Notes under the pieces: model-generated
Told to the model about the DNA's origin: nothing
Databases searched by the model: none
What the model saw: only the letters and a program-made list of their open reading frames with translations
Shown: positions 10,687 through 34,061 of the stretch, piece by piece
Layout: every line of letters starts with the position of its first letter
Position numbering within the stretch: position 1 is the first letter of the stretch
Assembly: GCA_036504215.1 (NCBI GenBank)
Contig: DASXVO010000076.1
Span: 1 to 35,078 of the forward strand
Origin: Vicinamibacterales bacterium
GTDB taxonomy: Bacteria; Acidobacteriota; Vicinamibacteria; Vicinamibacterales; Fen-181
Length of the DNA: 35,078 nucleotides
Direction of reading: 5' to 3'
Program-made: the position numbers and the translations under genes

Positions 10687-12639
10687 TCAGCGGTGCGGGG
10701 CCGGGGGCTGGCACGGGGCAGGAGGCCAGACGCCGTGGCCGAGTTCCGTGCCCGGTGCGGCTTGGGGCCGATCGGCCGGGCAGGCGCCGGGGCCGAGCGT
10801 CGAGTCCTCCGGCACGCTCAGCGCGGCCGGCCGGCTGGCGACGGGCAGCGGGACCTTCTTGTTGGGACTTGCGTAGACCTCGTGCCGCCCGTGCTGGCGG
10901 TGCCAGTCCGCCACGCTCGGGTTGCAGCGCATGCCTTCGACGATCTGGCGCCAGCCGATGCCCGTGTTGTAGGCGCAGAAGGCGATCTCGCCGATCGGCG
11001 TCGCATACGGAATCAGGCACATCTCCGTTCGCTGGAAGTCGTACGTCCACAGGTCCTGGAACCACATTCCGGCGACGAAGAGGATCAGCCAGTCATCGCC
11101 CTTGCGATTCTGGTTGTCGGTGGCCCCCATCTTGCCCCCCAGGGCCCCCCCGCTCTGCTTGTCGAACTTCTTGATCAGGTCGCGCAGTTGGAAACCGGCC
11201 GGCGCGTGGGCGGGGCGGTAGTTGCGGAGCAGCGCCAGCGCGCTCTGGATCTTCGTCAGCGCCGGTCCGCGTTTCGAGCGCGCGATCACCGCGGCGTCGG
11301 CGAAGAACCGCTCGACGTCCAGCATGCGGGGCAGCGGCGCCCACGCCTTCGTCCGCTTGTTCACCATGAGCGCGGTGGCGACGCCGCAATCCGGGTGGCA
11401 GGCGCACTTCAGGGTGCCGAACTCCGCGGCCGGACCCTTGATCAGATCCGTCAGGTCCGCCGCCACCGCCACGGCCGACAGCGGGAACCAGTCGCGCATC
11501 GGCTCGAGCACCCCGGTCTGGTTGTGCACGTCCTCGACCAACTGCGACAGCGTGTAGCGCTGGCGCGCCTTCCGTGCCTCGTCGATGTTCTCGTCGCGCC
11601 CGGTGAACGACACGGGCTGGAACGCCACGAAGCTGACCTTGTCGGCATTCTCGACGGCGAACTTGATGATGTGGCCGACCTGCCGGTCGTTGACGGTCCT
11701 GACCACCGTGACGACCAGAACGACGTCGATGCCGGCGTTGTAGAGATGCTCGATCGCGCGGAGCTTCACCTCGAACAGGTTCGGCACCTTGCGGTGCGCA
11801 TTCGCGTCCTCGCCGACGCCGTCGAACTGCAGATACGCGATGCGCAGGCCTGCCTCGGCGGCCCGCTTCGCGAACTCCGGATCCTGCGCGAAGCGGATGC
11901 CGTTGGTGGCGGCCTGGACGCTGAAGTAGCCGACCTTTCTCGCGTAGGCAATCGCGTCGAGGAACACCGGCGACAGCGTCGGCTCGCCGCCCGAGAACTG
12001 AATCGAGATCTGCCGCTTCGGCCGGATGGTCAGCGCGTTGTCGATGAGCTGCTTGACCTCGTCGAACGAGGGTTCGTGCACGTACCCCACCTGGTTGGCG
12101 TCCATGAAGCACGGGTCGCACATCATGTCGCAGCGGTTGGTGAGGTCGATGGTCAGGACGCCTCCGCGGCCGTAGCGGATCGAGGACGCCCCGTGATTGT
12201 GGAGCCGGTCGCACGACGAGTCGAAGTCCCGGCCCAGGAACAGGCCTTCGATGCGCCGGGTGAAGGCGGCGTCGGTCGACAGCGTCTCTTCGAACGTGCC
12301 GTGGATCGCGCAGTGCTTCTCCAGCACGATGTGGCCGTCGCGGTCGACAATGCGCGCGGGCACCTGGCCGGCATCCGAGGTCCGCAGGTCTTCCAGGCCG
12401 ACCTCGCCCGCCGCGATGCGCGTCCGGAGATCCCGGACGCAATCGGGACACAGCGACCGGGTGTCCCGGGGCAGGGAGAACGGCGCCGACGCCGAGCGGG
12501 CGGCGTTGGACGCGCCAGGTGGCGCCCATGGGGGGGGCTGCCTCATCGCCGGAATCAGGCGGTTTCCCGCCTGAAACAGGCGCCACATGCCGCTTGCCGC
12601 GCGCGTCAGCAGGTTTTCCCAGAACTTGGAACCGGACAT
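10687..12639 (-). CDS. COG1964-type radical SAM protein, tetraether-synthase-like
   Basis: A 650-aa multi-cluster radical SAM protein. The N-terminal Cys-rich part (C64-PD-C67, C110 in EKHCAIHG, C143) has the layout of archaeal tetraether synthase (Tes/GDGT-MAS) and COG1964 relatives, where it binds a rubredoxin-like iron. The radical SAM motif is C170-DMM-C174-DP-C177 in LTNRCDMMCDPCF, then FSGGEPTLSP and AATNGIRFAQDPEF. Further family marks are YLQFDGV, FQPVSFTGRDE, the auxiliary cluster region C412-A-C414-HPD-C418, and ATPIGEIAFCAYN near the C-terminus. The last 35 residues are a Pro-rich tail. Tes joins lipid tails by carbon-carbon coupling, and bacterial relatives are proposed to make membrane-spanning lipids. 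That function here is inference; COG1964 also has members of unknown role. It is transcribed alone, divergent from the radical SAM/ammonia-lyase operon. Confidence 0.85.
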   Translation of the reverse strand: MSGSKFWENLLTRAASGMWRLFQAGNRLIPAMRQPPPWAPPGASNAARSASAPFSLPRDTRSLCPDCVRDLRTRIAAGEVGLEDLRTSDAGQVPARIVDRDGHIVLEKHCAIHGTFEETLSTDAAFTRRIEGLFLGRDFDSSCDRLHNHGASSIRYGRGGVLTIDLTNRCDMMCDPCFMDANQVGYVHEPSFDEVKQLIDNALTIRPKRQISIQFSGGEPTLSPVFLDAIAYARKVGYFSVQAATNGIRFAQDPEFAKRAAEAGLRIAYLQFDGVGEDANAHRKVPNLFEVKLRAIEHLYNAGIDVVLVVTVVRTVNDRQVGHIIKFAVENADKVSFVAFQPVSFTGRDENIDEARKARQRYTLSQLVEDVHNQTGVLEPMRDWFPLSAVAVAADLTDLIKGPAAEFGTLKCACHPDCGVATALMVNKRTKAWAPLPRMLDVERFFADAAVIARSKRGPALTKIQSALALLRNYRPAHAPAGFQLRDLIKKFDKQSGGALGGKMGATDNQNRKGDDWLILFVAGMWFQDLWTYDFQRTEMCLIPYATPIGEIAFCAYNTGIGWRQIVEGMRCNPSVADWHRQHGRHEVYASPNKKVPLPVASRPAALSVPEDSTLGPGACPADRPQAAPGTELGHGVWPPAPCQPPAPHR

Positions 12640-12675
12640 CGTGATCGCCTCGCCGCCGTCGAGATCGGACCGCGT

Positions 12676-12704
12676 ATTATATCGTCAGCAAGGCCCAGAC
12701 CCAA
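12676..12704 (-). promoter_or_regulatory. sigma-70-type promoter for the tetraether-synthase-like gene
   Basis: On the minus strand, TTGGGT (12704-12699) and a perfect TATAAT (12681-12676) are separated by 17 bases. Transcription would start near 12669, about 30 bases before the ATG at 12639. It is the only consensus -10 in the divergent gap. Confidence 0.6.
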
Positions 12705-12771
12705 ACCGTTCGCGATCCTGCCCGCCAGATTTCCGATCGCGGCCGGCCTTTCGGCATCCGCCGAACTGGTC

Positions 12772-12777
12772 TAGAAT
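12772..12777 (+). promoter_or_regulatory. possible -10 for the radical SAM/ammonia-lyase/ligase operon
   Basis: TAGAAT at 12772-12777 lies 28 bases before the ATG at 12806, in the divergent gap shared with the tetraether-synthase-like gene. The region where a -35 would fall (12749-12754, TTTCGG) is poor. GGGGA just before the ATG may serve as ribosome site. Confidence 0.35.
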
Positions 12778-12805
12778 CAAACGCCCGCTTCCTTCTGGGG
12801 ACCCG

Positions 12806-14437
12806 ATGAAGGTGTTGCTCATCTCGATGCCGGACCGGCATCCGTACATCGCCAAGCGCGAGTACGAGGCGCCGTCGCTCGGCATCTCATCGATTTCCGC
12901 CAACCTGGACCGCCGCCACCAGGTGTGGATTGCCGACCTGTCGGTATGCAAGTGGAGCGTCCGTTCCTCCGTGCGGCGCTCGGTGCGCAAGTTCCGGCCG
13001 GACATCGTCGGCCTGTCGGCGATGATCTTCCAATATTTCACGGCCCGGCGCATCGCGAGACTCATCAAGGAAGAGTTCCCGGGCACGCTGGTCGCCCTGG
13101 GCGGGTACCACGCCACCACGATGGGCCGAGAACTGGCGGAGAGCCCTGAGGCAGAGGCGCTCGATTTCATCTGGCGGGGCGAGGCGGACCACGGATTCGG
13201 CGAGCTGCTCGACGCGCTCGAGGGGCGTCGCGACATCGAGTCGGTCGCCGGGCTGTCGTACAAGCGCGGGGGTGTGTTCCACCACAATCCGCCGCGGCCG
13301 CTCGAAGACCTGTCGACGATCGCGCTGCCCGACCGCGACCGCCGAGTCTACGGGCACTACCACTACTACTTCAACAAGACCGACGTCATGGAGACCTCGC
13401 GGGGTTGCCTGCAGCAGTGCAACTTCTGCTCGATGACCCAGATGTACGGGCCGACGTTCCGCAAGTACACGGTCGATCGCGTGCTCCAGGACGTGCTCGA
13501 CATCGCGAAGCCGCGCGGTGTGCGGCGCGTGGGCCACGCGCTGATCCTCGACGACAACATCACGCTCGACGTGCCGCGGTTCATGGACATCTGCGACGGC
13601 ATCGCATCGCTCAAGACCGGCATGCAGTTCCTCGTCCAGGCCAGCTGCGCGGGCATTGCCAAGGACCCGGCGCTCCCGCGGAAGATGGCCGACGCGGGCG
13701 TGACCATGGTCTTCCTCGGCATCGAGAACGCCTCCGAGGAGAACCTGCGGCAGATGAACAAGGGCCGGATCATCGACGTCACCAGGATTGCGGTGACCCG
13801 GCTGGCCGATGCGGGCATCATCGTCACCGGAGGGCTCATCACCGGGTTCCCGGACGACGATGTGACTGCGATCCGTCGCAACTACGAGTACTTCGCCGGC
13901 CTCGGGATCCGGACGGTGCTCGACCAGATCATCACGCCGTACCCCGGCACCGAGATGCGGCGTCAGTTGCTCGACGCCGGCCTCATCACCAATTTGTACG
14001 ACTACAAGTGGTACACGGGGTACTGGCCGCAGGTACGGACGCGGCACCTGACGTCGAAGCAACTGCTCTTCGAGAAATGGAAGGCACACCGGGAGATCAT
14101 CGACGACTGGCTCGCCGACGATCAGTTCAAGAAGAACTACCCGTACTGGTCGCTCATCTGGAACCGCCTCCTGCGCCCGGTCATCCGGATGAACGAACGC
14201 CGCATGTGCTGGATGTACGGCGAGAAGGGGCGCTTCAAGCGACAGATGGTGCAGTGGGCGCAACTCAACGACTACTTCGGCGACATGGTCATCGACGAGG
14301 GGTTCTTCGACCCCGACGTCGAGGCGCCCGCAGGCATCGGCGACCCGGATGCCGTGCTCGACTTCGGCCGGGCGCCGTACAAGGACGCGAACGACGAGCC
14401 GGCGATCGTTCGCACGGCGACGACAGGACACGCGTGA
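12806..14437 (+). CDS. B12-binding-type radical SAM protein
   Basis: A 543-aa radical SAM enzyme with an N-terminal B12-binding-like domain (MKVLLISMPDRHPYIAKREY, then VALGGYHATT near residue 97). The cobalamin-coordinating DxHxxG histidine is not evident: the corresponding strand reads IADLSVCKWS. The radical SAM motif is C201-LQQ-C205-NF-C208 after ETSRG. The barrel continues with LDDNITLD, MVFLGIENASEENLRQMNKG and GGLITGFPDDD. The last 150 residues are rich in aromatics and Arg. The stop codon overlaps the start of the ammonia-lyase gene (GTGA), so the two products are likely translated together. That suggests it acts on the same pathway intermediate, for example by methylation or a carbon-carbon rearrangement. 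The reaction is not predictable from sequence. Confidence 0.9.
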   Translation: MKVLLISMPDRHPYIAKREYEAPSLGISSISANLDRRHQVWIADLSVCKWSVRSSVRRSVRKFRPDIVGLSAMIFQYFTARRIARLIKEEFPGTLVALGGYHATTMGRELAESPEAEALDFIWRGEADHGFGELLDALEGRRDIESVAGLSYKRGGVFHHNPPRPLEDLSTIALPDRDRRVYGHYHYYFNKTDVMETSRGCLQQCNFCSMTQMYGPTFRKYTVDRVLQDVLDIAKPRGVRRVGHALILDDNITLDVPRFMDICDGIASLKTGMQFLVQASCAGIAKDPALPRKMADAGVTMVFLGIENASEENLRQMNKGRIIDVTRIAVTRLADAGIIVTGGLITGFPDDDVTAIRRNYEYFAGLGIRTVLDQIITPYPGTEMRRQLLDAGLITNLYDYKWYTGYWPQVRTRHLTSKQLLFEKWKAHREIIDDWLADDQFKKNYPYWSLIWNRLLRPVIRMNERRMCWMYGEKGRFKRQMVQWAQLNDYFGDMVIDEGFFDPDVEAPAGIGDPDAVLDFGRAPYKDANDEPAIVRTATTGHA

Positions 14438-15966
14438 CGACTATGGGAACTCAAGCAGCGACTGACAAGGCTATCGTGCTCGACGACCGCCAGGTCTCGT
14501 TCGATTCGGTCGTGCAGGCGGCGGTGGACGGACGGAGCGTCGAGTTGGCGCGCAACCGAGCGTGGCGCCGGCGGCTCGCCGCGAGCCGCGAGGTTCTGGA
14601 ACACGCCCTCGACGCCGGTCAGACGGTCTACGGCGTCTCCACGGGCGTCGGCAACAACTCGTCGCGGGCCGTCGACCGGCAGAACCAGATCGACTTCGCC
14701 ATCTCGGTGATGGAGCAGCACGGCTGTGGGGTCGGCGACCCGTTGTCCGAGGCCGAGGGGCGCGCGGTCACGTTCGCACGTCTGGTGAGCCTGACGAAGG
14801 GGCTGTCCGCGGTTCGGCCGCCGTTGCTCGACGCGCTCTGCGCCCTCCTCAACCACCGCATCACCCCGGTGATCCCGCGGTGGGGCTCGGTCGGCGCGTC
14901 CGGAGACCTGACGCCGCTGTCGTACGTGGCCGCGGTCCTTGCCGGGCAGCGCAAGGCGTACTACCGGGGCCGTATCGTGGACGCCTCGCGCGCCCTGGCC
15001 GCCGAAGGCCTCGAACCCTGGGCCTTCGGTCCCAAGGAGACGCTGGCGATCATGAACGGCACGTCGGTCATGACCGCGGTGGGGATTCTGGCGGTGGCGC
15101 GGTTCGAACGGCTGATCGAGCAACTCGAAGGCGCGTCGGCGCTCGCCACCGAAGTGCTGCTCGGACGGTCGCAGGCGTTCGACCCGCTCGTGCACGCCGC
15201 CAAGCCGCATCCGGGGCAGATCGAGACGGCCAGACGCGTCCGCCAGGCGCTGCGCGGCAGCCGGCTGCTGGATCCGCCGCACAAGAACGGCCGTCCCGTG
15301 CAGGACCGCTACTCGATTCGCTGCGTGCCGCAGGCCGCCGGGGTCGCCCGCGATGTCATCTCGTGGGCGCGCCAGGTCCTCCAGATTGAACTCAACAGCG
15401 TCAACGACAACCCGTTGGTAGACCCGGAATCGAAGCAGATCCTGTTCGGCGGCAACTTCTTCGGCGGCCATCCGGCGGTCGTGATGGATACGGTCAAGAT
15501 CGCGGCGGCCTCGATGGCCGACCTGATCGACCGGCAGTTCGCGTTGCTGGTGGACGAAGGCCACAACATGGGCATGCCCGAAACGCTCGTGCCGTACGGC
15601 GGCTGCGGCGTCAAGGGGCTGCAGATGACCTGCAGTGCGCTCACTGAGTTGGCCGTGCAGCGGTCGTTCCCGGACGCGGTTCTCTCGCGGTCCACCGAGT
15701 GCGCCAACCAGGACAAGGTCAGCATGGGCCTGCAGGCGGCGCTGCACGCGAGCGAGATCATCGGCCTGGTGGGCCGCTCCCTCGCCACGGAGATGATTGC
15801 GCTGTCGAACGCCGCGGCGCTGCGCGAGGAATCGAGGCTGTCGCCGGCCGGCCGCGCCCTGCTGGTGGGTGTCCGGAGGCGGTCGGCGGTGCTCGTCCGC
15901 GACCGTCCGCTCGACGTCGATATCGAGCGGGTCGCGCGCTGGCTGGAGGCGGGCGGGGCGAGGTGA
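14434..15966 (+). CDS. MIO-type aromatic amino acid ammonia-lyase (HAL/TAL family)
   Basis: A 510-aa ammonia-lyase that should remove ammonia from histidine, tyrosine or phenylalanine to give a 2-enoic acid. I use GTG 14434, which overlaps the previous stop and has AGGA five bases upstream; ATG 14443 is the alternative. The MIO cofactor triad A155-S156-G157 is in GSVGASGDLTPLSY, and the catalytic tyrosine Y66 in VYGVSTGVG. The selectivity position reads Q95-H96, whereas bacterial HutH has Ser-His and PAL has Phe-Leu. Retention of His argues against PAL. Other family motifs are IMNGTSVMT, VQDRYSIRC and ELNSVNDNPL. No hut genes are nearby. The one-base overlap with an AMP-ligase gene makes it a supplier of a cinnamate-type starter acid, as in flexirubin and dialkylresorcinol clusters. 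Confidence 0.92.
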   Translation: MTTMGTQAATDKAIVLDDRQVSFDSVVQAAVDGRSVELARNRAWRRRLAASREVLEHALDAGQTVYGVSTGVGNNSSRAVDRQNQIDFAISVMEQHGCGVGDPLSEAEGRAVTFARLVSLTKGLSAVRPPLLDALCALLNHRITPVIPRWGSVGASGDLTPLSYVAAVLAGQRKAYYRGRIVDASRALAAEGLEPWAFGPKETLAIMNGTSVMTAVGILAVARFERLIEQLEGASALATEVLLGRSQAFDPLVHAAKPHPGQIETARRVRQALRGSRLLDPPHKNGRPVQDRYSIRCVPQAAGVARDVISWARQVLQIELNSVNDNPLVDPESKQILFGGNFFGGHPAVVMDTVKIAAASMADLIDRQFALLVDEGHNMGMPETLVPYGGCGVKGLQMTCSALTELAVQRSFPDAVLSRSTECANQDKVSMGLQAALHASEIIGLVGRSLATEMIALSNAAALREESRLSPAGRALLVGVRRRSAVLVRDRPLDVDIERVARWLEAGGAR

Positions 15967-17315
15967 TGACGACCGAGCCACGGGCGCTACGGCTTGGGGC
16001 AGAGCGTCTGGCAACGACCTTCGCAGGTGACCCCGACCGCCCCTTCCTGCGCGAGGGCGGCGAGGTGTGGACGGTTGGCCGTCTGCTGGCGTACGCCGCG
16101 GACGTCGACCACCGGCTCCCTCGAGATGCCGGACCCGCGGTGGGCGTGCGGAGCCATTCAGCCGCGTTCGTCGTGGCATCGCTGCTCGGTCTCTGGAAGT
16201 CGAACCGCCTGCCGCTGCTGATCGATCCGTCGCTGGCGGCCGAGCCGTCCGGCCTTCGAAGCTCATCCCCCCGGATGCCCGTGCTCGCGCCGGCGGGTGT
16301 GACCGACCCCTGGGCCGACGTCCTCGTGGCGGAAACAGGGGGCGGGCTCCTCGATCCACACCTGCCGTTGGCCGACGAGGCCGAAGTCGGGTTCTTCACA
16401 TCCGGCTCCACCGGCGAGCCGAAGATCGTTCGCAAGAGGGCGTATCAGCTCGGGGAACAACACGCGATGGAAGCGCCCTGGCTCGGCCTGAGCGGACCGA
16501 TCTCGGTGCTGTGCCTCGTGCCGGCGTTCCACATCCTTGGCTACATCTACGGTTTCTCGACGCCGGCAGCCGGCGGTGGCGTCACGACGTTCTCGCGCGG
16601 CGCGTCGCCTCAGGCGTGGGTCGAGCACATCGCGGCCGAGCAGCCAACGCTCATCATCGGCGTGCCTTCACACTATCGGCTCATGGCGCAGGTGTCGGGC
16701 CCGTCGCTTCCGCGGGCGATCTATCTCTGTTCCGGCGGACCCCTCGACCCTGCCGTCGCCGCGGAGTTCGAACGTCGGGCGGGGACGCCGGTCCTGCAGG
16801 TCTATGGATCCACCGAGACGGGCGGCATCGCCACGCGCCTTGGCGCCGGGCCCTGGCGCACGATGCCCGGCCTGGCCTGGGAGCGCCGCAAGCTGGATGG
16901 ACGGCTGCTGATCACGTCCGCGTGGCAGGATCGGCCGCAGGAGTGGTACTGCACCGACGACGTCATCGCGTCAGATGGAGAGACGTTCCGCCTGTTGGGG
17001 CGCGCGGACTCGATCGTGAAGATCGGCGGCCGGCGCTTCTCGACCGGCGAACTGGTGCAGGCGGCGCTCACCGCGCCCCACGTCGAGCAGGCGCACGCCG
17101 TCGTCTACGACCGTTTCGGCGAGTTGGCCGTGGCGCTCTTCGTCGTGTCGCCACGGGACGCCGTCGTGACGCCGGCCGACGTCCGGACGTTCCTCGCCGG
17201 CCGGCTCGCGCCGTTCAAACTGCCGCGGACGATCCAGGTCGTGAACGAGTTGCCGACGCGCAGCATCGGCAAGATCGACGACGAAGCCCTGCGCGAGAGC
17301 CTTTCCCGGGGATGA
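15966..17315 (+). CDS. short AMP-dependent ligase (aryl/acyl-acid activating)
   Basis: An ANL-superfamily adenylating enzyme of 449 aa. The ATG overlaps the ammonia-lyase stop by one base (TGATG); GTG 15963 is also possible. Motifs are the ATP loop T145-SGSTGEP-K153, Y280-GSTETGG, YCTDD, the hinge GRADSIVKIGG, and the C-terminal catalytic lysine K436 in SIGKIDD. It is about 50-100 residues shorter than typical acyl-CoA synthetases. This is the size of the AMP-ligases of aryl polyene and dialkylresorcinol clusters, which load aryl acids onto an ACP. The predicted job is to activate the acid made by the preceding lyase and transfer it to the ACP encoded at 33786-34061 or to CoA. It ends 15 bases from the convergent DegT-type gene. 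Confidence 0.9.
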   Translation: MTTEPRALRLGAERLATTFAGDPDRPFLREGGEVWTVGRLLAYAADVDHRLPRDAGPAVGVRSHSAAFVVASLLGLWKSNRLPLLIDPSLAAEPSGLRSSSPRMPVLAPAGVTDPWADVLVAETGGGLLDPHLPLADEAEVGFFTSGSTGEPKIVRKRAYQLGEQHAMEAPWLGLSGPISVLCLVPAFHILGYIYGFSTPAAGGGVTTFSRGASPQAWVEHIAAEQPTLIIGVPSHYRLMAQVSGPSLPRAIYLCSGGPLDPAVAAEFERRAGTPVLQVYGSTETGGIATRLGAGPWRTMPGLAWERRKLDGRLLITSAWQDRPQEWYCTDDVIASDGETFRLLGRADSIVKIGGRRFSTGELVQAALTAPHVEQAHAVVYDRFGELAVALFVVSPRDAVVTPADVRTFLAGRLAPFKLPRTIQVVNELPTRSIGKIDDEALRESLSRG

Positions 17316-17330
17316 GGGCCTCCGAACCGT

Positions 17331-18575
17331 TTACGCCTTTTTCAGCAACTCCGTTCTGACCCTCCGGCCGATCCGCTCGATTTCATGGTCCGCCAGCGAC
17401 TCGTACACGGGGACTTGAACAGCGGTCGCCGCCTTCTCGGCGCCCACGGCCTGCAGACCCTGCCAGCCGAACAGATCCATGTGCGTGCACACGTCCACGT
17501 GCATCGGCGCCACGTCGACGCCCCGCCGGATGCAGCGCCGAACGAGCTGTTGATAGTTCGGGACGTAGGGGCAGTACTGGTAGTAGACGTGCGTCTGCCC
17601 CTCGGGTATGCGCGGGACGCTCACCCCGGGGAGATCCCCGAGCATCTCGTCGAACACCTTCGCGTGCCGCCTGGTGCGCTCGATGAATTCGGGCAGCCGC
17701 TCCAGTCCGGCGAGTCCGAGCGCCGCCTGCACGTTCGAGAACTTGCCGCCGTAGTGGGCCGGCAACGGGTCGAGGCGCTCCACTTTCTCCCAGAGGAAAC
17801 GGTCAGGCTTCGCGTCGAGCCAGGACGTGACCCACCAGATCGGGAACCCGGAATACGTGAACACGGTCGGCCGGATAAAGGTCCGCTGCCACCAGCCGAC
17901 ACGCAAGACGCTCTCCACGCGCTCTGCCGTGGGCCAGGGTTCCGCCTCGGCGTACTCGCCAACGCGCCGCGCCAGCTCGGCGTCCCGCATCCAGGCCAGA
18001 CCGCCACCGAAGGTGTTCAGCGGCTTGAAGGCCTGGAAGCTGAAGAAGCTGGCATCGCCGAACGTGCCCACCATCTGGCCGCGATAGGTGGCCCCCAGCG
18101 AATGCGCACAATCTTCGATCACCTTCAGATCGTGACGGCGGGCGAGCGCGAGGATCGGATCGAGATCGCAGGAGAGCCCGTAGAGGTGCGTGGGCAGCAC
18201 CGCGCGCGTGTTGGGAGTGATCGCGCGCTCCATCGCCGCCGGGCTCAGGGTGAACGTCGTCGGGTCGATGTCGGCGAACACGGGTTTCAGGCCCGCCACC
18301 CTGGTGATCTCCGGGACCACCCAGAACGTGAGCGCGGGCACGATGATCTCCGAGCCCGGCGGGAACTGCATCGACTTCAGGATGTCGAGAAGCGCCATGC
18401 GTCCATATTCCAGGGAGACCGCACGCACGTGCCCCTGGCCCAGGAAGCGGGCAAACGCCTCTTCGAAGGCCGCGATGTGCGGTCCCTGAACGAGTTGCCC
18501 GCGTTGGCGGCAGTCCCGGATGATTTGCGCCGAGTCCGGTACCATCCGCATGCCATATCGCGCGATCGCCGCCAT
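17331..18575 (-). CDS. DegT/DnrJ/EryC1-type PLP aminotransferase
   Basis: A fold-type I aminotransferase of the sugar-aminotransferase (DegT/ArnB) family, 414 aa. I start at ATG 18575, where AAGGAAGG (18590-18583) gives a well-spaced ribosome site; the frame is open to 18635. Motifs are EYGRMALLDIL, IIVPALTFWVVPEITR, FADIDPTTFTL, VIEDCAHSLGATY, and the PLP-binding lysine K184 in FSFQAFKPLNTFGGG. A Trp-rich segment near residues 215-260 is unusual and may contact a hydrophobic substrate. Family members aminate keto-sugars or cyclitols. Here it may put an amino group on a sugar or polar head group of the lipid. It has its own promoter and a long leader, and follows the dehydratase pair on the same strand. 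Confidence 0.9.
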   Translation of the reverse strand: MAAIARYGMRMVPDSAQIIRDCRQRGQLVQGPHIAAFEEAFARFLGQGHVRAVSLEYGRMALLDILKSMQFPPGSEIIVPALTFWVVPEITRVAGLKPVFADIDPTTFTLSPAAMERAITPNTRAVLPTHLYGLSCDLDPILALARRHDLKVIEDCAHSLGATYRGQMVGTFGDASFFSFQAFKPLNTFGGGLAWMRDAELARRVGEYAEAEPWPTAERVESVLRVGWWQRTFIRPTVFTYSGFPIWWVTSWLDAKPDRFLWEKVERLDPLPAHYGGKFSNVQAALGLAGLERLPEFIERTRRHAKVFDEMLGDLPGVSVPRIPEGQTHVYYQYCPYVPNYQQLVRRCIRRGVDVAPMHVDVCTHMDLFGWQGLQAVGAEKAATAVQVPVYESLADHEIERIGRRVRTELLKKA

Positions 18576-18754
18576 GCTGTCGCCTTCCTTCCCGTTGTGA
18601 ACTGCCAGTACTCCCGTGTCCAACCAGCCCGCCACGGTCCCGAGGGCGGACCGGTCGAGACCCGTTTGGGGACACTGACGGCTTGGGCGCCAGCCGGAAC
18701 TGGCCGGATCCCCCGATCGACACTCGCGGCCCTGTCCGGGCCCGCGCTCGGTTC

Positions 18755-18782
18755 AGTATCCACGCGCTGAGAAGCGTGTCAA
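18755..18782 (-). promoter_or_regulatory. near-consensus sigma-70 promoter for the DegT-type gene
   Basis: On the minus strand, a perfect TTGACA (18782-18777) and GATACT (18760-18755) are 16 bases apart. The -35 overlaps the stop codon of the upstream dehydratase-like gene. Transcription would start near 18748, leaving a leader of about 170 bases. Within it, CGGTCC and GGACCG (between 18635 and 18653) can form a 6-bp hairpin. Confidence 0.65.
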
Positions 18783-20077
18783 GCCAGCGGCCGACGGATG
18801 CTCTTTCGCTGCTGGTAGCTGCGGGCGAGGTCCATGTAGACGCCGAGGTCCGCTTCGAGGTCCTGCGGCGTGCCGTCGAAGTAGAGCGTGCGGATCGGCA
18901 GGCCGTTCAGGTCTCGTGAGACGCGAGGATACACGGCCTCGCAGACGATTCCGTTCATGCAGGTGAAGGGGCTGATGTCGATGATGCCGTCAACGCCCTT
19001 TTCGGCCAACTTGATGGCGCGACCGACGCTCAACACCATCTCGCCGAGCGCGCCGTCCACGGGGAGGTATGGCTGGGCGGCCTGGACGACCTCCTGCACG
19101 TCAGGTTCTTCGTAGCCTCGAAACTCCTCCTCGAACGGCTCGAGCAGCACCTGCTCGTCGTGATGCTGGACCCGTTCGCGGACCCAGGTCGTGGCACCTT
19201 CGGTCGAGATGAGCCGCCCGTGCAGGCGAAGCTTCCGGTAGGTCTCCGCGACCGTGTACCAGATCCACTCCGTGATACCCGACAGCCAGACCTCCGCGCC
19301 GGCTTGCTCGAGGCGACGCACGGCATCTTCGTTCGAGAACGTGTTCAGCCTGCAGAAGATCTCGCCGACGACGCCGATGAGCGGGCGCGGCGTGGTCCTG
19401 CGGGTGTCGAGTCCGGCGAAGCGAAGGCGACAGCGCACGAGAGACGCCCGGAGCGACAGCAACTGGCCGCGCGGCGATGAAGGACCGTGCTCGACGGCGT
19501 TGCAGATGTCGTCGAGGCATTCCTCGAACGTCGCATCGGCCGTGCCGAGTCGTCGTTCGTACGGACGGTGCCGCAGCAGCAGCTTCTGCAGGATGTCGGC
19601 GGCGACGAGCATCCGCCACGCGGTGCGGACGAACGGTCTGGCGAGTGTGCCGAGCCCGTTGTACGCGTTCTTGCTCGTGGGCGACAGCACCTCGACCTGC
19701 GGAAAGCCGTTGGCGTCGAGTAGCTGCCGCATGTACGACGAGTACTGACCGAAGCGGCACGGGCCGTCGGCGGTCGGCAGGAAGAAGACCGTGCGCGCGG
19801 GGTCGGCGTCCTCGCGCTCGAGGACCCGCATGAAGTCGCCAACCGTCACCTTGGCGGGGAAGCACTCGTCGCCCGAGGTGTAGCGTGCGCCCAGTTCGCG
19901 CGTCCGCGCGTCCGAGGGCGGCGTCAACGCCGCCTCGACGCCGAGCGAGCGGAAGCCCGCCGCGAACGCCCGCGCGCTGCCGTACGCCATCGGGGGGATG
20001 TAGACCTTCTTGCCCGTCAGCGGGTGGGCGCCGTTTCGGCTGCTGACGCGCCGCCCTGGGTCGGCTCCGGATAACAT
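18779..20077 (-). CDS. 2-hydroxyacyl-CoA dehydratase (HgdB)-like / CoA-activase C-terminal protein
   Basis: A 432-aa protein matching the C-terminal part of long CoA-activase/2-hydroxyglutaryl-CoA-dehydratase-like proteins. I start at ATG 20077 because the family-typical TGKKVYIPPM segment lies close behind it; AAGG about ten bases upstream may serve as ribosome site. Conserved cysteines that could hold a [4Fe-4S] cluster are C72 (GDECFPAK), C107 (DGPCRFGQYS) and C373 (FTCMNG); C379 is an additional cysteine. The gene overlaps the end of the preceding activase gene by 61 bases in another frame. Together the two reproduce the order seen in one chain in clostridial PlsA (plasmalogen synthase) and in proposed bacterial glycerol ester reductases. 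The homology class is solid; an ether-lipid role is inference. The frame stays open to 23233, but that part is a shadow of the activase gene. Confidence 0.82.
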   Translation of the reverse strand: MLSGADPGRRVSSRNGAHPLTGKKVYIPPMAYGSARAFAAGFRSLGVEAALTPPSDARTRELGARYTSGDECFPAKVTVGDFMRVLEREDADPARTVFFLPTADGPCRFGQYSSYMRQLLDANGFPQVEVLSPTSKNAYNGLGTLARPFVRTAWRMLVAADILQKLLLRHRPYERRLGTADATFEECLDDICNAVEHGPSSPRGQLLSLRASLVRCRLRFAGLDTRRTTPRPLIGVVGEIFCRLNTFSNEDAVRRLEQAGAEVWLSGITEWIWYTVAETYRKLRLHGRLISTEGATTWVRERVQHHDEQVLLEPFEEEFRGYEEPDVQEVVQAAQPYLPVDGALGEMVLSVGRAIKLAEKGVDGIIDISPFTCMNGIVCEAVYPRVSRDLNGLPIRTLYFDGTPQDLEADLGVYMDLARSYQQRKSIRRPLA

Positions 20078-23000
20078 CGCAGGATGCCCTTGCTGTCGAG
20101 GTAGGCCTCGCAGCGTGTCAGGTAACCGGCGTCGTTGCCGTGGCCGTCGAACTGCAACACGAGCAGCGGCGTGCCGGCGGCCTGCCGGGTGAAGTACTTG
20201 ATGTAGGAATCCGGCCCGCACTTGAAGTTCGAGATGTAGATGATGTGCAGGTTCGGGCGAGACGCGACGAGGCGAGCCGACTCGAGTATCCGCTGGCCCG
20301 ACGTCCAGTACATGTTCGCGTGCAAATCGTCGATCGACTCGCGGCCCGTCACGAGGAAGTCGAGCGGAATGACGTTGGCCCCGTAGTGCCGACGCAGCTT
20401 TCGCGGGATGTCGCAGTTGATGTTCCGGTCGTAGATGTTGTACGGGCGTCCGACGAGCACGAGGCCCGGCGCGTGCGCCCGGTCGAGCGCGTCGAGCGCC
20501 CGCCGGCCGGCGTCGAGCAGGCGTTCCTGGAACTGCCGCTGCGCGGCGTAGGCGGCATCCACGGCGCGATCGCTCACGCGGCGGTCGATGCCAAGGTGCT
20601 GCGCCATCTCCGCCACCGACCGCTTGATCGATTCGCGCCCAAGCTGGAAGTGCAGGCTCGGCGCCAGGATGCGGCTTCCGACGGCCTCGAGGCGGGGGGC
20701 CGACCGCAGCACGTAGGGCAGCGTCTGCGTCCACGGACAGAAGTGCGCCACGCACGTGGACTCCTCGTGCGCCTCGTTGTCGAGCATGTTGGGGACGAGC
20801 ACGTAGTCCACGCCCAGCTCGAAGAGCGACAGGACGTGCCCGTGGGCCACCTGCACCGGAAAACACGGCTGGGCGAGCGCCAGTTCGATTCCCTGGCCGG
20901 CAATCGCCCGGTCGGTCGGGCGCGAGAGGACCGGTCTCAGGCCGACGGCTGAAAAGTAGGCGTGCCAGAACGGGTACCGCTCGAGCGTGGCCATCGTCCG
21001 CGGGATGCCGATCGTCAGCGGGCCGGGCGAGATCGAGTCGGGCGTCTTGAGCGACTGGCCCGTAATCTCCTCGAGCACCTGGTCGCGATACTCGAGCAGA
21101 TCGTCGATGACCGGCAGGCGCGCCGCCGCGGCGGGCCGCCGGTAGCGATCGGAGCACTTGTCGCCCCAGTAGCTCTTCTGGCCGTCGATCGTGAATTCCT
21201 TGATGTCGCACTCGTTGGAGCACGCGCGGCAGACGAAGTCGCGCGTCGTCCGGTCGAGCAGCGTCAGGTCGTAGCCGCGGAAGCGGGTGGATCCCTGTCC
21301 GGCGCGGTGCCAGCCGCGCGCGATGAGCGCCATGCCGATGGCCCCCATCACGCCGTTGTAGGGGGGCACGGTGATCGGCTTGCCGAGGATCGCCGCGAAC
21401 GCAGCCGCGACCGCGTCGTTGTAGGCCGTGCCTCCCTGGAAGTAGATGACGTCGCCAATCCGGCGCCCGCGCACGACGCGGTTGAGGTAGTTGAGCGCGA
21501 TCGAGTAGGCGAGCCCCGCCACGAGATCCGGAATCGGCTCCGCCTTGTGGAGCCACCCGGTCACGTCGCGCTCCATGAACACCGTGCACCGCTCGCCGAG
21601 CTTGGTGGGGGACGGCGAGGACAGCGCCAGCCGTGCGAATTCGTCCTTGATGTCGATACCCAGCTTCTCGGCCTGCTCCTCGAGGAACGAACCGGTGCCC
21701 GCGGCGCACGCCTCGTTCATCGTGAAGTCGACGACGACGCCGCCCTCGATGGCGATGAACTTCGAGTCCTGCCCCCCGATCTCGAAGATCGTGTCCACCG
21801 GCGGGCCGCCTTGCGTCGTACTGACGTGCACCGCGCCGGTCTTGTGGGCGGTGATCTCGTCGTTGACGACGTCCGCGCCGACGAACTCGGCCACCAGTTC
21901 CCGCCCGGACCCGGTCGTGCCAACGCCGGCGATGGCCAGGCGGGGTCCCCAGGCCCGTTCGAGTTCGGTCAGGCCCTGCTGTACGGCTTCGACCGGCCGT
22001 CCTGACGTGCGCAGGTAGCTGTCGAACACGACCTCGCCCGTCTCGTCCACGACCACGAGGTTGGTGGAGACCGAGCCGACATCGATACCCAGGTAGCCCC
22101 GAATCGGTTGGCCGCCTGGCGCCGGCGCATACCGTCGGACGCGGTCGCGCAGCAGCACCACGTTGTCGAGCGTGAGCGGCGTGCCGTCGAAGGGCCGCTG
22201 CTGGCCGGCGTGCTGGTGCAAGCGGTGAATCTCGCCGAACGAGCGCTTGTCGGTTTCCTCCGCCTCGAGCATCGCCGCGCCGATGGCGCCACACCACGCG
22301 TAGAGCGGCGGCACGACGAGTTGCGAGGCGTCGAGGTCGAATGCCTCGCGCAGGGCCTCGACCACCCCGTCGTTGCAGGCCACGGCGCCGATGAACAGGA
22401 CCGGTGTCTGGACCGACCGCCCCTTCACCACGCTGCTCTTGAAGTTCTGCGCGACCGCGCGGCACAGACCGCGGAGAATCTCCGCCGGCGAGCAGCCTTG
22501 CTGCTGCGCGTGAACCATGTCCGACTTGGCGAAGACCGAGCAGCGCCCCGCGATGCGGGCCGCCGTGGTTGCGGTCCTCACGACCGCGCTCATCTCCTCG
22601 ACGGAATAGCCGAGCCGGGAGGTCTGCTGATCCAGGAACGAACCCGTGCCCGCCGCGCACTCGCCGCCCCGGTCGTAGTCCGCGATCAGGGCCGGCCCTC
22701 CGGAAGCCCCGCGTTCGAGGCGGAGATAGCGCGAACTCTCGCCGCCAATCTCGAAGACCGTGCGGGTATCCGGGTAGAAGCGGGCGACCATGTGCGCGGC
22801 CGCCTTGAACTCGTTCTCGAAGTAGATGCCGAGAAGACGCGCAATCGTGCGGCTGCCGGAGCCGGTCACGCGAATGCCCTCGATGCGCGTCTCTGGCACC
22901 GTCTCGTAGAACGCCTGGAGCAGGTCGTAGGTCGCCTGGATGGGGCTGCCCGCAATGCGAACGTAGTGCGACACGACGAGCGGCCTGGCGCCGGCGCCCA

Positions 23001-23121
23001 CCCACCGGAATTCGGCGTGCGCCGCGCACAACGATTCGAGCAGAGGGCGATCGCCCGGTGCGCCGAGCGCAGCGAGTTTCAGGCCGATCGCGCCGATGTC
23101 GAGCCCGATGTTGATGGCCAA
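20017..23121 (-). CDS. double BcrA/BcrD-type ATPase (CoA activase) with DUF2229, PlsA-like
   Basis: A 1034-aa protein with two ASKHA ATPase activator domains. The best start is TTG 23121, directly before AINIGLDIGAIG with GGAAGGG upstream; no in-frame ATG is close. Domain 1 (about 1-300) has C155-AAGTGSFLDQQ and C194 in GRCSVF. Domain 2 (about 330-600, from YLGIDVGSVSTN) has C472-AAGTGSFLEEQ and C512 in ERCTVF. The 39-40 residue spacing of each pair matches the two cysteines that hold the bridging [4Fe-4S] cluster in HgdC activators. A Cys cluster follows (C631, C634, C638, C656), then a DUF2229/HgdB-like region (IGIPRTMATLERYPFW, PCFPVQVAHGH, ISNFKCGPDS). Such enzymes drive ATP-coupled low-potential electron transfer. 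Clostridial PlsA, which turns ester into vinyl-ether lipids, has this layout. Confidence 0.86.
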   Translation of the reverse strand: MAINIGLDIGAIGLKLAALGAPGDRPLLESLCAAHAEFRWVGAGARPLVVSHYVRIAGSPIQATYDLLQAFYETVPETRIEGIRVTGSGSRTIARLLGIYFENEFKAAAHMVARFYPDTRTVFEIGGESSRYLRLERGASGGPALIADYDRGGECAAGTGSFLDQQTSRLGYSVEEMSAVVRTATTAARIAGRCSVFAKSDMVHAQQQGCSPAEILRGLCRAVAQNFKSSVVKGRSVQTPVLFIGAVACNDGVVEALREAFDLDASQLVVPPLYAWCGAIGAAMLEAEETDKRSFGEIHRLHQHAGQQRPFDGTPLTLDNVVLLRDRVRRYAPAPGGQPIRGYLGIDVGSVSTNLVVVDETGEVVFDSYLRTSGRPVEAVQQGLTELERAWGPRLAIAGVGTTGSGRELVAEFVGADVVNDEITAHKTGAVHVSTTQGGPPVDTIFEIGGQDSKFIAIEGGVVVDFTMNEACAAGTGSFLEEQAEKLGIDIKDEFARLALSSPSPTKLGERCTVFMERDVTGWLHKAEPIPDLVAGLAYSIALNYLNRVVRGRRIGDVIYFQGGTAYNDAVAAAFAAILGKPITVPPYNGVMGAIGMALIARGWHRAGQGSTRFRGYDLTLLDRTTRDFVCRACSNECDIKEFTIDGQKSYWGDKCSDRYRRPAAAARLPVIDDLLEYRDQVLEEITGQSLKTPDSISPGPLTIGIPRTMATLERYPFWHAYFSAVGLRPVLSRPTDRAIAGQGIELALAQPCFPVQVAHGHVLSLFELGVDYVLVPNMLDNEAHEESTCVAHFCPWTQTLPYVLRSAPRLEAVGSRILAPSLHFQLGRESIKRSVAEMAQHLGIDRRVSDRAVDAAYAAQRQFQERLLDAGRRALDALDRAHAPGLVLVGRPYNIYDRNINCDIPRKLRRHYGANVIPLDFLVTGRESIDDLHANMYWTSGQRILESARLVASRPNLHIIYISNFKCGPDSYIKYFTRQAAGTPLLVLQFDGHGNDAGYLTRCEAYLDSKGILRCYPEPTQGGASAAETAPTR

Positions 23122-23335: not shown

Positions 23336-24394
23336 ATGCTCACGACGTCCGGCCTGCCTGGCTTTGCCGTGCAGCGCCTTTTGACCGATCGACTCCTGGC
23401 GTTCGTCGAGTGCAGCGGCATTGCGCGCCTGCTGGCGGGGCGTCGTCGCTTCACGCAGGATGACGCGATGGCGATGCTCGCCGACGAACTGGGCTTTGCG
23501 GTCCGCGATTCGATCCGCGCGCGGATGGTGCATGTCCTCCTCGATTTCCTGGACGACTGCGAATACGTCCGCACGGAACCGGACGGCACTCGGCGCTGGA
23601 ACCTGTCGGCGGTGCCTCCCTGGCACCCCAGTGAACACGAGGAACACGAGATCTGCCGCACGTTCGACGGTCAGATGGAGTTCTTCGGCCAGTGCCTCGC
23701 CTACGTGGGGCGCTTCCTGGAAGGTGCGCCCCCCCTGTTCGACTTCGCCGGCACCTCCACGAACGCATGGGAGCGGCTCCTCGGCAACGGCGAAATCGCC
23801 TACGCCCGCTCGGTGCTGTCCCGCCTGCTGCTGCCGCGCGCGGTCGAGGGGGCCCGGATCCTGGTGCTCTGTTACGGCCCGGGGTTCGACCTGGTCGAGA
23901 TCGAGCGGCGCCGGCCCGACGCCCGAATCACGGCGCTCGACTTCACGAACGCGTTCTTCGACGTGGCCTCGCGGCGCCTGACCAGGCCCGAAGCCGTTCG
24001 ATGGGTGGACGGATCGTCGTGGAAGGGCTTCGGCTCGCCGCTTCCGTTCGACGACGGCTGGTTCGACGTGGTGTTGTTCGCGTGCGCCGATCCCTACATT
24101 CCGCCGGCCGTGCGCGTCTTGGCGTACGAGGACATCCACCGTGTCATGCGGGCGGGGGCCGTGCTCGGCGTGCTGACGCACAGCTATCCCGACAAGGCGA
24201 GGCTCGCGGTCGCGGAGTCGTGGATTCGCCGCGGGACGTACTGCCACGACTTCCTCGAGAGCGTCTGCCAGGGATGGCAGGGCTTCTACGACGCGGCGGC
24301 AACGCGTGCGCTGTTCACCCAGGTCGGATTCGGCCTCGACGTCGTCACACTCAACGCGTCGGTGTGGCGGCTCCAGAAGCCAGGGACCCGGTGA
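23336..24394 (+). CDS. SAM-dependent methyltransferase (O-methyltransferase-like)
   Basis: A class I methyltransferase of 352 aa. The N-terminal 130 residues are helical, with a winged-helix-like stretch (VHVLLDFLDDCEYVRTEPDGTRRW) of the kind used for dimerisation in small-molecule O-methyltransferases. The SAM-binding motif is variant: ILVLCYGPGFD at about 175-185, followed by ALDFTNAF. A motif IV-like DVVLFACADPYI and a post-motif VMRAGAVLGVLTHSYP follow. No ribosome site is obvious before ATG 23336. The gene overlaps the next by four bases (GTGA). Methyltransferases of this sort decorate the aryl head in aryl polyenes; that use here is inference from context. Confidence 0.8.
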   Translation: MLTTSGLPGFAVQRLLTDRLLAFVECSGIARLLAGRRRFTQDDAMAMLADELGFAVRDSIRARMVHVLLDFLDDCEYVRTEPDGTRRWNLSAVPPWHPSEHEEHEICRTFDGQMEFFGQCLAYVGRFLEGAPPLFDFAGTSTNAWERLLGNGEIAYARSVLSRLLLPRAVEGARILVLCYGPGFDLVEIERRRPDARITALDFTNAFFDVASRRLTRPEAVRWVDGSSWKGFGSPLPFDDGWFDVVLFACADPYIPPAVRVLAYEDIHRVMRAGAVLGVLTHSYPDKARLAVAESWIRRGTYCHDFLESVCQGWQGFYDAAATRALFTQVGFGLDVVTLNASVWRLQKPGTR

Positions 24395-25575
24395 CCCGCG
24401 ACGAGCGCCTTCCTGGCCGCGCTCCGTTCGGGGCGGGCCTGTTCACGCGCTATCTCTACAGACTGCGAACGGAGGGCCGCGGCCGCGGCCGCCAGGCTGC
24501 CGCGATCGGCCTCGGCGTGTTCATCGGCTGCCTTCCCGTGTTCGGTCTGCATTTCTGGATGTGCCTCGCGGTCGGATCCGTGCTTCGGCTCAACAGGTTG
24601 AAGCTGTACTTCGCGGCGAACGTCTCGAATCCGTTGATGGCGCCTCTCATCGTCTTTTCCGAGATCCAGGCGGGATGCCTGGCCCGGCACGGCACGGTGT
24701 ACCCCATTACGCTGGCGGCGCTGCGTGCGGTCGACCCATGGTGCTTCGTCGCGGATCTCGCCGTCGGCAGCCTCATCGTCGGCGGGGTGCTCGGTGGGCT
24801 GGCCGCAGGGGCCACGTGGATGCTGACCGGTCGAGCGTTGGCCGGTCACGAAGACGAGCTCATCACGGAGGCCGCCGCGGCGTATCTCGGATCCGGCATC
24901 CTGGCATGGGAGTTCGCGAACGGCAAGCTGCGAATGGACCCCGTCTATCTCGACGTGATCCGCAACGTGCCGCTGCCGGATCGAGGGCGGATTCTCGATC
25001 TCGGCTGCGGACGGGGCCTGATGCTCGCGCTGCTGGCCGCGCATTACCGCCAACGGGCGGAGGGCGCCGGATCCGTGCCTCTCCACGGCATGGAGTACCG
25101 TCCGCGCATGGTGCGTCAGGCCCGCGGCGCGCTCGCCGATCGGGCGACGATCGACCAGGCCGACCTCACGACGTGCGATGTGCCCGCGTGCCGCACGGTG
25201 CTGCTTCTCGACGTCCTCCACTGTCTGCCGGAGGCCGAACAGGAGGCGCTGCTGTGCCGCGCGCGCGACGCCGTGGAGGCGGGCGGCCTCCTGATCGTCC
25301 GGGAGGCGGACGCCGGGGCCGGCTGGCGCTTCACGCTGGGGCAGGTGACGAACCGTGCCGTCGCGATCCTGCAGGGGCGATGGGGCCGGCGGTTCTACTT
25401 TCGGAACGCGGACGATTGGGCGCGGCTGTTCGAACGATGCGGGTTCGTTCCGGAGATCGCCCCCCTGGGGCAGGCCACCCCGTATGCCAACGTCCTCGTC
25501 TGGGCTCGCCGCTACGCCCCGGACACGGACCGCGCGCTCGGGAGCGCCGCGTCCTCGGTCGAGTCCCGCCAATAA
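24391..25575 (+). CDS. DUF2062-methyltransferase fusion protein
   Basis: A 394-aa protein starting at GTG 24391, overlapping the upstream stop by four bases. Residues 15-150 form a DUF2062 domain: an Arg-rich start (YRLRTEGRGRGRQAAA), then hydrophobic helices GLGVFIGCLPVFGLHFW and LYFAANVSNPLMAPLIVF, and another near 120-145, so it is membrane-anchored. Residues from about 195 form a class I methyltransferase with motif I ILDLGCGRGLML (D203), VLLLDVLHCLPE and a late GRRFYFRN segment. DUF2062 often occurs beside lipid and glycan glycosyltransferases. The fusion suggests methylation of a membrane-bound lipid intermediate. Its last 64 bases overlap the convergent acyltransferase gene. Confidence 0.86.
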   Translation: MTRDERLPGRAPFGAGLFTRYLYRLRTEGRGRGRQAAAIGLGVFIGCLPVFGLHFWMCLAVGSVLRLNRLKLYFAANVSNPLMAPLIVFSEIQAGCLARHGTVYPITLAALRAVDPWCFVADLAVGSLIVGGVLGGLAAGATWMLTGRALAGHEDELITEAAAAYLGSGILAWEFANGKLRMDPVYLDVIRNVPLPDRGRILDLGCGRGLMLALLAAHYRQRAEGAGSVPLHGMEYRPRMVRQARGALADRATIDQADLTTCDVPACRTVLLLDVLHCLPEAEQEALLCRARDAVEAGGLLIVREADAGAGWRFTLGQVTNRAVAILQGRWGRRFYFRNADDWARLFERCGFVPEIAPLGQATPYANVLVWARRYAPDTDRALGSAASSVESRQ

Positions 25576-33000: not shown

Positions 33001-33002
33001 AG

Positions 33003-33785: not shown

Positions 33786-34061
33786 ATGGATCAACCACTC
33801 TCGCTGCAGGTCAAGGAGGCCATCATTCGGAGCCTCCGTCTCCCGATGACACCCCAGGACATCGCCGACAGCGTGCCGCTGTTCGGTGAGGGCCTGGGCC
33901 TCGATTCAATCGACGCGCTCGAGCTGGTGCTCGAGCTCGAACGCTCCTTCGGCGTCGTCGTCGGCGACGACCAGTTGGGCGGTCGTGTGTTGCGCAGCGT
34001 CGACACGATCGTCGAGTTCATCGAACAGAAGCGCGGCCAGGGCCCGGCGCCCACGTCGTAG
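33786..34061 (+). CDS. acyl carrier protein
   Basis: A 91-aa acidic carrier protein. The phosphopantetheine attachment serine is S41 in GLGLDSIDALELVLELE, followed by the usual helix III region ending VDTIVEFIEQK. It starts 12 bases after the KR stop. It is the likely carrier of the aryl or acyl chain activated by the ligase at 15966-17315 and reduced by the KR. Its tail GQGPAPTS is disordered. Confidence 0.93.
   Translation: MDQPLSLQVKEAIIRSLRLPMTPQDIADSVPLFGEGLGLDSIDALELVLELERSFGVVVGDDQLGGRVLRSVDTIVEFIEQKRGQGPAPTS

Follow-up and report, generated by a model that had tools for sequence, protein, structure and literature searches.

A Tes-Related Radical SAM Gene Within a Putative Aryl-Polyene-Type Lipid Cluster of a Vicinamibacterales Bacterium, and a Proposal for Its Function

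Introduction

Which lipid is the substrate of a relative of tetraether synthase (Tes) that is encoded among genes of the aryl polyene type? The question is raised by a stretch of 35,078 nt from a soil Vicinamibacterales bacterium (Acidobacteriota; assembly GCA_036504215.1, contig DASXVO010000076.1, positions 1–35,078; the whole stretch is called the window below). The window has a G+C content of 68% and belongs to contig C76, which is 138 kb long, in a genome of 5.9 Mb. A preliminary description had noticed a COG1964 radical S-adenosylmethionine (SAM) protein of 650 amino acids (aa) with the Tes cysteine layout and, nearby, a split pair of a double activase and an HgdB-like protein in the domain order of PlsA. 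Synthesis of membrane-spanning or ether lipids had been suggested, perhaps joined to aryl-lipid genes. In the present analysis the aryl connection turned out to be the main finding and the filing of the protein as Tes to be wrong; the function is offered as a proposal.

In the reaction of Tes, a substrate carbon bonds to the sulfur of a cluster (PMC9433317). Bacterial homologues listed by Zeng et al. (PMC8941075) include one with 32% identity in Edaphobacter aggregans and others with 40–42% in Solibacter and Koribacter. The aryl polyene genes of E. coli encode a methyltransferase, a ketosynthase (KS), a ketosynthase/chain-length factor (KS/CLF), a lysophospholipid acyltransferase, an acyl carrier protein (ACP), a ligase, a dehydratase, a glycosyltransferase, LolA and an RND transporter (PMC8253772).

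The samples comprised 120 relatives of the window genome, 162 genomes of the order, 247 genomes of the phylum and, for the branch of the Tes-like protein, 80 loci of a named collection. G and L numbers label the genomes and loci compared, G000 being the window genome in the set of relatives. Many of the compared genomes are fragmented, so the absence of a neighbouring gene is weak evidence. Gene starts were taken from a simple purpose-made caller, and the Fisher tests ignore kinship between genomes.

Results

A Tes Relative Without N-Terminal Auxiliary Ligands

The gene at 10687–12639 (minus strand) is an open frame of 650 codons with coding-like base composition. Pfam recognized Radical_SAM and Zn_ribbon_HMPTM in its product, and the NCBIfam model for Tes (NF045702) matched it over the full length with 329 bits (329.1 in a repeat; E 3.9e-98). 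The Tes entry 7tol of the PDB was matched with 223 bits. The recognition of a Tes-like COG1964 protein was thus correct. The curated cut-off of NF045702 is 450 bits and was not reached, in contrast to 582 bits for the canonical Tes copy of G006. TrsS, the next family in score, was rejected as an identity (222 bits versus 329 for Tes), and canonical Tes was ruled out by score, ligands and tree.

The cysteine layout that had been noticed before was found in part. The rubredoxin-like residues C64/C67/C110/H113 and the radical-SAM motif CX3CX2C (C170/C174/C177) were invariant in 29/29 aligned rows. The positions of the C-terminal auxiliary cluster (C338, M439, C455, C470; MjTes numbering here and below) were kept in all nine window-type rows; which cysteines bind this cluster is our inference, and the text available of PMC9433317 names only Met439. 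The SAM-loop residues Q268, S271 and R275 were also kept. The ligands of the N-terminal auxiliary [4Fe-4S] cluster (C73, C77, C80 and a histidine), in contrast, were not found in the alignment of the window protein. None of the 39 rows of its clade has C73/C77/C80, at least two of these rows being duplicates from one gene, and all 30 canonical rows have them, showing that the absence of the N-terminal auxiliary ligands is a trait of the whole clade.

An AlphaFold model of the protein (predicted local distance difference test 74, predicted template modelling score 0.82) was by far best fitted by 7tol (TM to target 0.83) and 7tom (0.81). Because of the ligand pattern and this fit, the tail-binding architecture is predicted to be kept and one auxiliary cluster to be gone.

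A tree of 58 rows, hand-picked from the sequences fetched, was calculated; L129 and L134 had been dropped, having no single open frame with all motifs. The protein again emerged as a relative of Tes. Its clade is bacterial and lacks the N-terminal auxiliary ligands; the branch between this clade and canonical Tes measures about 2.1 changes per column and has a support of 100/100. The identities of Zeng et al. would fit these two classes. The window branch consists of nine genomes of the order and L112 (99/98), and its sister is a metagenome-assembled genome of the Latescibacterota (100/99). The next group contains copies of Deltaproteobacteria together with the acidobacterial core copy (including Edaphobacter, Granulicella aggregans and Luteitalea), and a further group is formed by myxobacteria, e.g., Sorangium and Minicystis. 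The window protein is therefore not the core copy, which is near-universal in its order, but a side-branch paralogue.

Distribution of the Paralogues

The window genome carries a core copy (C37:67999-69825) besides the window copy; a canonical Tes was not found in it, the best matches to a canonical query being these two copies with 34–36% identity. Some match with an E value of 1e-3 or better was present in 107/120 relatives. A full-length window-type copy (62% identity or more) was confined to nine of them (G000, G001, G002, G006, G015, G040, G042, G064, G088), fragments in G062 and G119 being left out of this count. In the sample of the order it was present in 10/162 genomes, plus fragments in G062, G119, G362 and G364. 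At least a piece of the core paralogue was found in eight of the nine carriers (G000, G001, G002, G015, G040, G042, G064, G088); for G006, the listed rows showed none. Among the neighbours of the near-universal paralogue, of which the start residues were read by eye, no link to lipids was noticed. In the phylum sample a canonical Tes exceeded the cut-off in 28/247 genomes.

Three side observations concern these paralogues. At L216 (G119:C81, 7329–10597) the core copy is immediately adjacent to a window-type fragment with an internal stop (63% over 273 aligned aa), possibly a case of decay or an assembly fault. In two genomes of one genus (L230, G232:C21; L231, G188:C24) a canonical Tes and a Tes-like gene without N-terminal auxiliary ligands are about 4 and 6 kb apart. 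Cultured myxobacteria of the genera Sorangium and Minicystis (L128, L130, L160) have full-length Tes-like genes without these ligands; we know of no report of membrane-spanning lipids in them.

Linkage of the Window Branch to an Aryl-Polyene-Type Cluster

By its gene families, the window holds most of a putative aryl-polyene-type lipid cluster at about contig positions 10.7–41.5 kb. The parts present are a starter supply with a ligase, KS/CLF, ketoreductase, ACP, LpxL-type acyltransferase, family 2 glycosyltransferase, LolA and MMPL, in agreement with the E. coli ape gene list as given in PMC8253772. A large predicted envelope protein with a LolA-like segment, designated 'w' (34950–37955 of the contig, plus strand, of which 34950–35078 are in the window), was used as the cluster marker. 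It was found with 44% identity or more in 9/9 full-length carriers and with 43–46% in only 7/111 other relatives (G009, G021, G023, G031, G049, G057, G103; Fisher p 1.1e-9 for the 120 relatives). When the fragments in G062 and G119, both without 'w', were counted as carriers, p was 5.4e-8.

The Tes-like gene and several cluster genes share a contig in G000, G002, G088, G040 and G015. It adjoins the ligase in G042, G064 and G349, lyase and ligase in G006, and a partial lyase in G001; the association spans four families of the order (f1, f4, f6, f10). At the 80 loci of the named collection, cluster genes were present only with L111 (74%), L112 and L113, all with 63% identity or more. They were not seen at 76 loci of 51–58% nor at L114 (62%, short contig), apart from single weak stray matches, e.g., to FabG-like proteins. 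The cluster linkage is limited to the window branch of the clade.

The starter gene differs between the clusters. It is a gene for an aromatic amino acid ammonia-lyase/aminomutase-like protein (Lyase_aromatic; in the window 14437–15966, plus strand, start possibly at 14476) in G000, G001, G002 and G006, and a gene for an FkbO/Hyg5-type chorismatase (PF21168) in G015, with homologues in G009, G021 and G049; the starter protein of G040 reads like a chorismatase by eye. Both would deliver aryl acids, and therefore this swap supports the assignment to aryl polyenes. From context and swap it is likely that the lyase-like protein supplies the aryl starter; the solved structures closest to it are those of a probable histidine ammonia-lyase and of tyrosine aminomutases. 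In G088, the ligase, a Trp-halogenase-like flavoprotein and a methyltransferase are found beside the Tes-like gene, and a FabA/Z-like dehydratase is its neighbour in G001, G002, G006 and L112. The guess that the Tes-like gene and the pair are joined to aryl-lipid genes was thus supported by the cluster content.

The PlsA-PlsR-Like Pair

The gene at 20017–23121 (minus strand) encodes a PlsA/Ger-like protein of 1034 aa with two BcrAD_BadFG (BadF-type activase) domains and DUF2229 in Pfam and in comparison with homologues (Act1-Act2-Red1). Its end is overlapped by a separate gene for an HgdB-like, PlsR-like (Red2) protein (18779–20029, minus strand). The product of the latter had only a weak DUF2229 match below the cut-off in Pfam and no relative in the PDB by sequence, and it was colinear with the C-terminal third of fused homologues of about 1400 aa. 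The pair has the domain order of PlsA-PlsR and Ger (two activases, DUF2229, HgdB-like; one or two genes), so the earlier recognition of a split PlsA arrangement held. The activase cluster cysteines lie in ECAAGTGSF/GRC and EACAAGTGSF/GERC, and three cysteines were conserved across six HgdB-like sequences. A single operon of C. perfringens likewise contains plsA and plsR as separate genes; the part names Act1, Act2, Red1 and Red2 are based on AlphaFold (PMC12838417). A Ger with two activase domains makes alkyl ethers (PMC13274423, PMC11150832), and Ger and PlsA are described in a 2026 paper as indistinguishable by sequence.

The Tes-like gene and the pair, both on the minus strand, are 6.1 kb apart and not 5 kb as given before. 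Between them are genes for a B12-binding radical SAM protein, the ammonia-lyase and the ligase (all plus strand) and an aminotransferase (minus strand). Copies of the pair with 77% identity are present in G001 and G002. In G001 the copy and cluster genes are on a contig other than that of the Tes-like gene; in G002 the Tes-like gene and the copy share a contig, the copy being about 20 kb distant at the opposite cluster end. The pair was absent from the cluster stretches of G040, G088 and G015. Copies with about 49–51% identity were found in G006 and G022. The window genome has another activase/HgdB-like pair (L073, G000:C86:90328-95669), for which membership in the same family was rejected, the gene order being reversed and the identity only about 27%.

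In G006 a canonical Tes, a PlsA-like and a PlsR-like gene are contiguous on one strand (L067, G006:C23, 7923–14051), and this row recurs in G304, a genome from a different family (L217, G304:C20, 4949–11135; 78, 73 and 75% identity). By its gene content this row is a candidate tetraether operon. Full-length copies of the PlsA-like subfamily (49% or more) were present in 13/28 genomes with canonical Tes versus 4/219 others, the window genome being one of the four (Fisher p 4.7e-11, 247 genomes). G214 (fused, 43%) and G339 (partial) were not part of this count; their inclusion changes p to 1.4e-11. Because of this co-occurrence and the gene rows in G006 and G304, the PlsA-like subfamily probably works on tetraether-type lipids, the support being good but circumstantial. 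Counting against such a link, 19/20 canonical loci had no PlsA-like neighbour within the stretches available. The loci checked were 20 of 30, plus G006 and G005; a PlsA-like neighbour was seen in G304 and G006 only, and the G005 locus is at a contig end. The preliminary description would have been contradicted by a placement of both proteins in unrelated clades; instead, one is a relative of Tes and the subfamily of the other is associated with canonical Tes across the phylum.

Further Genes of the Cluster

The first B12-binding radical SAM protein (12692–14437, plus strand, start possibly at 12806; Pfam, NCBIfam) has an orthologue adjoining the Tes-like gene in G006, a remnant in G001 and none in G002. 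The lyase gene is followed by genes for an AMP (adenosine monophosphate)-forming aryl/acyl ligase (15966–17315, plus strand) and a DegT/DnrJ/EryC1-family aminotransferase (17331–18575, minus strand), both assigned by Pfam and NCBIfam. The latter was not found in the related clusters examined, and its cluster membership is uncertain. On the other side of the pair, a SAM methyltransferase (23336–24394, plus strand; Pfam) and a protein with DUF2062 and a SAM methyltransferase (24391–25575, plus strand), which is kept in related clusters with 41–47% identity, are encoded.

The minus strand carries genes for an LpxL-type acyltransferase with an ApeD-like role (25512–26471), a family 2 glycosyltransferase with an ApeJ-like role (26518–27189), an ApeM-like MMPL/RND exporter (27186–29612), a second B12-binding radical SAM protein, designated 'q' (29609–31015), and a LolA-like protein (31073–31699), for which the flexirubin LolA2 model was the best in NCBIfam (68.6 bits, cut-off 125). 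The product of 'q' is HpnR-like, and its identity with the hopanoid methylase HpnR was rejected (218 bits, cut-off 650); BchE was rejected for gene 'f' (129 versus 481 bits). Genes for a ketosynthase-like chain-length-factor subunit with Gln at the position of the partner KS's active-site Cys (31777–33000), a FabG-type ketoreductase (32997–33773, start possibly at 33051), the ACP (33786–34061) and a polysaccharide-deacetylase/DUF3473 protein (34078–34893) follow on the plus strand. Past the window, the cluster continues to about 41473 with a PHP protein, a ketosynthase (ACSS active site) and an alpha/beta hydrolase.

At the other edge of the window, the start of another protein is encoded (1–663, minus strand, MRILLLNPRCTQTYW...), which reads like a B12 radical SAM protein.

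Discussion

A Proposed Pathway

On balance, it seems somewhat probable that the locus encodes an aryl polyene lipid pathway, which would have recruited a tail-coupling enzyme of the Tes clade and, in one genus, ester-to-ether steps of PlsA-PlsR type. Gene content, order, conservation, clade, ligands and co-occurrence were observed, while the chemistry is wholly deduced, the steps being read from the enzyme families. The lyase (chorismatase in relatives) would supply an aryl acid, which the AMP ligase would load onto the ACP. A conjugated chain would be built by KS/CLF, ketoreductase and dehydratase, attached to a lipid by the LpxL-type acyltransferase and the glycosyltransferase, and transported to the outer membrane by the MMPL and LolA-like proteins. 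The Tes-like enzyme might then abstract a hydrogen from an sp3 carbon at the tail end of the aryl lipid and join two ends. Candidate tail ends would be the ordinary iso-acyl tail of the anchor, or a ring or chain methyl made by the methyltransferases or 'q'. The PlsA-PlsR-like pair might reduce the acyl ester to a (vinyl) ether.

It is tempting to speculate about the product. An aryl polyene lipid with tails joined end to end by radical coupling of the Tes type, perhaps a membrane-spanning or macrocyclic pigment that is also ether-linked in the window genus, is a tentative idea, possible rather than probable.

Several points weigh against the proposed pathway. Complete related clusters without the Tes-like enzyme exist in G009 and G021 (one contig each) and in G049; in these three, chorismatase, ligase and dehydratase are present and neither the enzyme nor 'q' was seen. 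Because of these clusters, the enzyme would at most be an added tailoring step. G023, G031, G057 and G103 carry 'w' but no full-length window-type enzyme, and in G064 the enzyme and the ligase are on a different contig from the rest of the cluster. The pair is inside the cluster in the window genus only (G000, G001, G002). The dehydratase homologue of G000 (72%) is on another contig, C21, and no equivalent of ApeK or ApeG was identified. Without the N-terminal auxiliary ligands, the electron supply to the Tes-like enzyme would lack an explanation; the activity of bacterial Tes homologues is given as unconfirmed in a 2025 paper (PMC11868695); and substrate and product of every enzyme here are inferred. 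As a side observation, contig C21 of G000 carries, besides the dehydratase (15747–16112), a distant homologue of 'w' (44275–46089, 29%) and is possibly a second, partial aryl polyene region.

Other Explanations

The enzyme could instead be a second synthase for ordinary membrane-spanning lipids of the iso-diabolic acid type, housed in and co-regulated with the envelope cluster, with the pair making ordinary glycerol ethers. All its catalytic ligand positions are common to the clade of the Edaphobacter and Granulicella copies, binding of phosphatidic acid and a tolerance for different headgroups have been reported for Tes (PMC9433317), and the PlsA-like subfamily tracks canonical Tes across the phylum. 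The cluster linkage, however, is confined to the window branch, and an ordinary-lipid function would be redundant, because eight of the nine carriers already have the near-universal paralogue, at least in part. We regard this explanation as rather unlikely; for the ordinary membrane role (diabolic-type acids), the core paralogue (G000:C37) and, in other genomes, canonical Tes would be better candidates. The membrane-spanning or ether-lipid function envisaged in the preliminary description therefore survives in part: fold, ligands and pair speak for it, but the protein is not a canonical Tes, and its conserved company is the aryl-polyene-type cluster and not the pair.

Less likely still is another radical chemistry on the aryl polyene (methyl/aryl cross-linking, ring closure or desaturation), in which the cluster's B12 radical SAM proteins would take part. 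The distribution of 'q' is ambiguous in this respect: it is present in the enzyme-bearing clusters of G000, G002, G006, G088 and G064 and was not seen in the enzyme-free clusters of G009, G021 and G049, but it was also not seen in G040 and G015, both of which have the enzyme. Speaking against this chemistry, the Met and Cys positions of the C-terminal cluster, which are tied to coupling by Tes, are kept. A chance neighbourhood of unrelated Tes-like, PlsA-like and aryl genes is very improbable and for the Tes-like gene already disfavoured by the co-occurrence in 9/9 carriers and the conservation across four families, even though the pair is not kept in the cluster beyond one genus and the G064 gene is separated from the cluster remainder by a contig boundary.

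Significance

The proposed aryl polyene lipid pathway links membrane-spanning lipids, of which the bacterial makers and genes are an open matter for soil climate proxies, with aryl polyenes, a very widespread family of bacterial natural products. If true, a tail-joined aryl polyene lipid would be a new lipid class, uniting bacterial pigments with archaeal-style tail coupling, and a defined gene cluster is now available to delete or express. Among the listed matches of a literature search (aryl polyenes with tetraether, diabolic acid, radical SAM or Acidobacteri), no report of a Tes-type enzyme in an aryl polyene cluster was found, which is weak evidence for novelty; one listed paper, PMC8549736, mentions aryl polyene as well as radical SAM. 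From the gene rows of G006 and G304 and the co-occurrence in the phylum, specific candidate genes emerge for ether formation during the synthesis of branched tetraethers by Acidobacteriota. For Solibacter this idea had been raised before, in a proposal that homologues of Tes and PlsAR are used (PMC10087280).

Comparison With Known Systems

With Tes/GDGT-MAS (MJ0619, PDB 7tol, NF045702) the window protein shares the whole-chain fold, the rubredoxin-like motif, CX3CX2C, the C-terminal cluster cysteines with Met439 and the SAM-loop residues. It differs by its 34–36% identity to canonical acidobacterial Tes, a score below the cut-off, the missing N-terminal auxiliary ligands and its neighbours. 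The bacterial Tes homologues of Edaphobacter, Granulicella and Sorangium belong to the same clade without these ligands (52–59% identity), but, unlike the window copy, they have no aryl polyene cluster within the DNA stretches compared. The pair resembles PlsA-PlsR and Ger in layout and cysteines, with Act1-Act2-Red1 and Red2 in two genes and the activase cluster cysteines, and differs by its location in a pigment-type cluster. With the aryl polyene clusters (E. coli ape, xanthomonadin, flexirubin) the window cluster has in common ligase, ACP, KS/CLF, ketoreductase, dehydratase (in relatives), methyltransferase, LpxL-type acyltransferase, family 2 glycosyltransferase, LolA and MMPL. In contrast to these known clusters, it adds the Tes-like radical SAM gene, the B12 radical SAM genes and, in one genus, the PlsA-PlsR-like pair.

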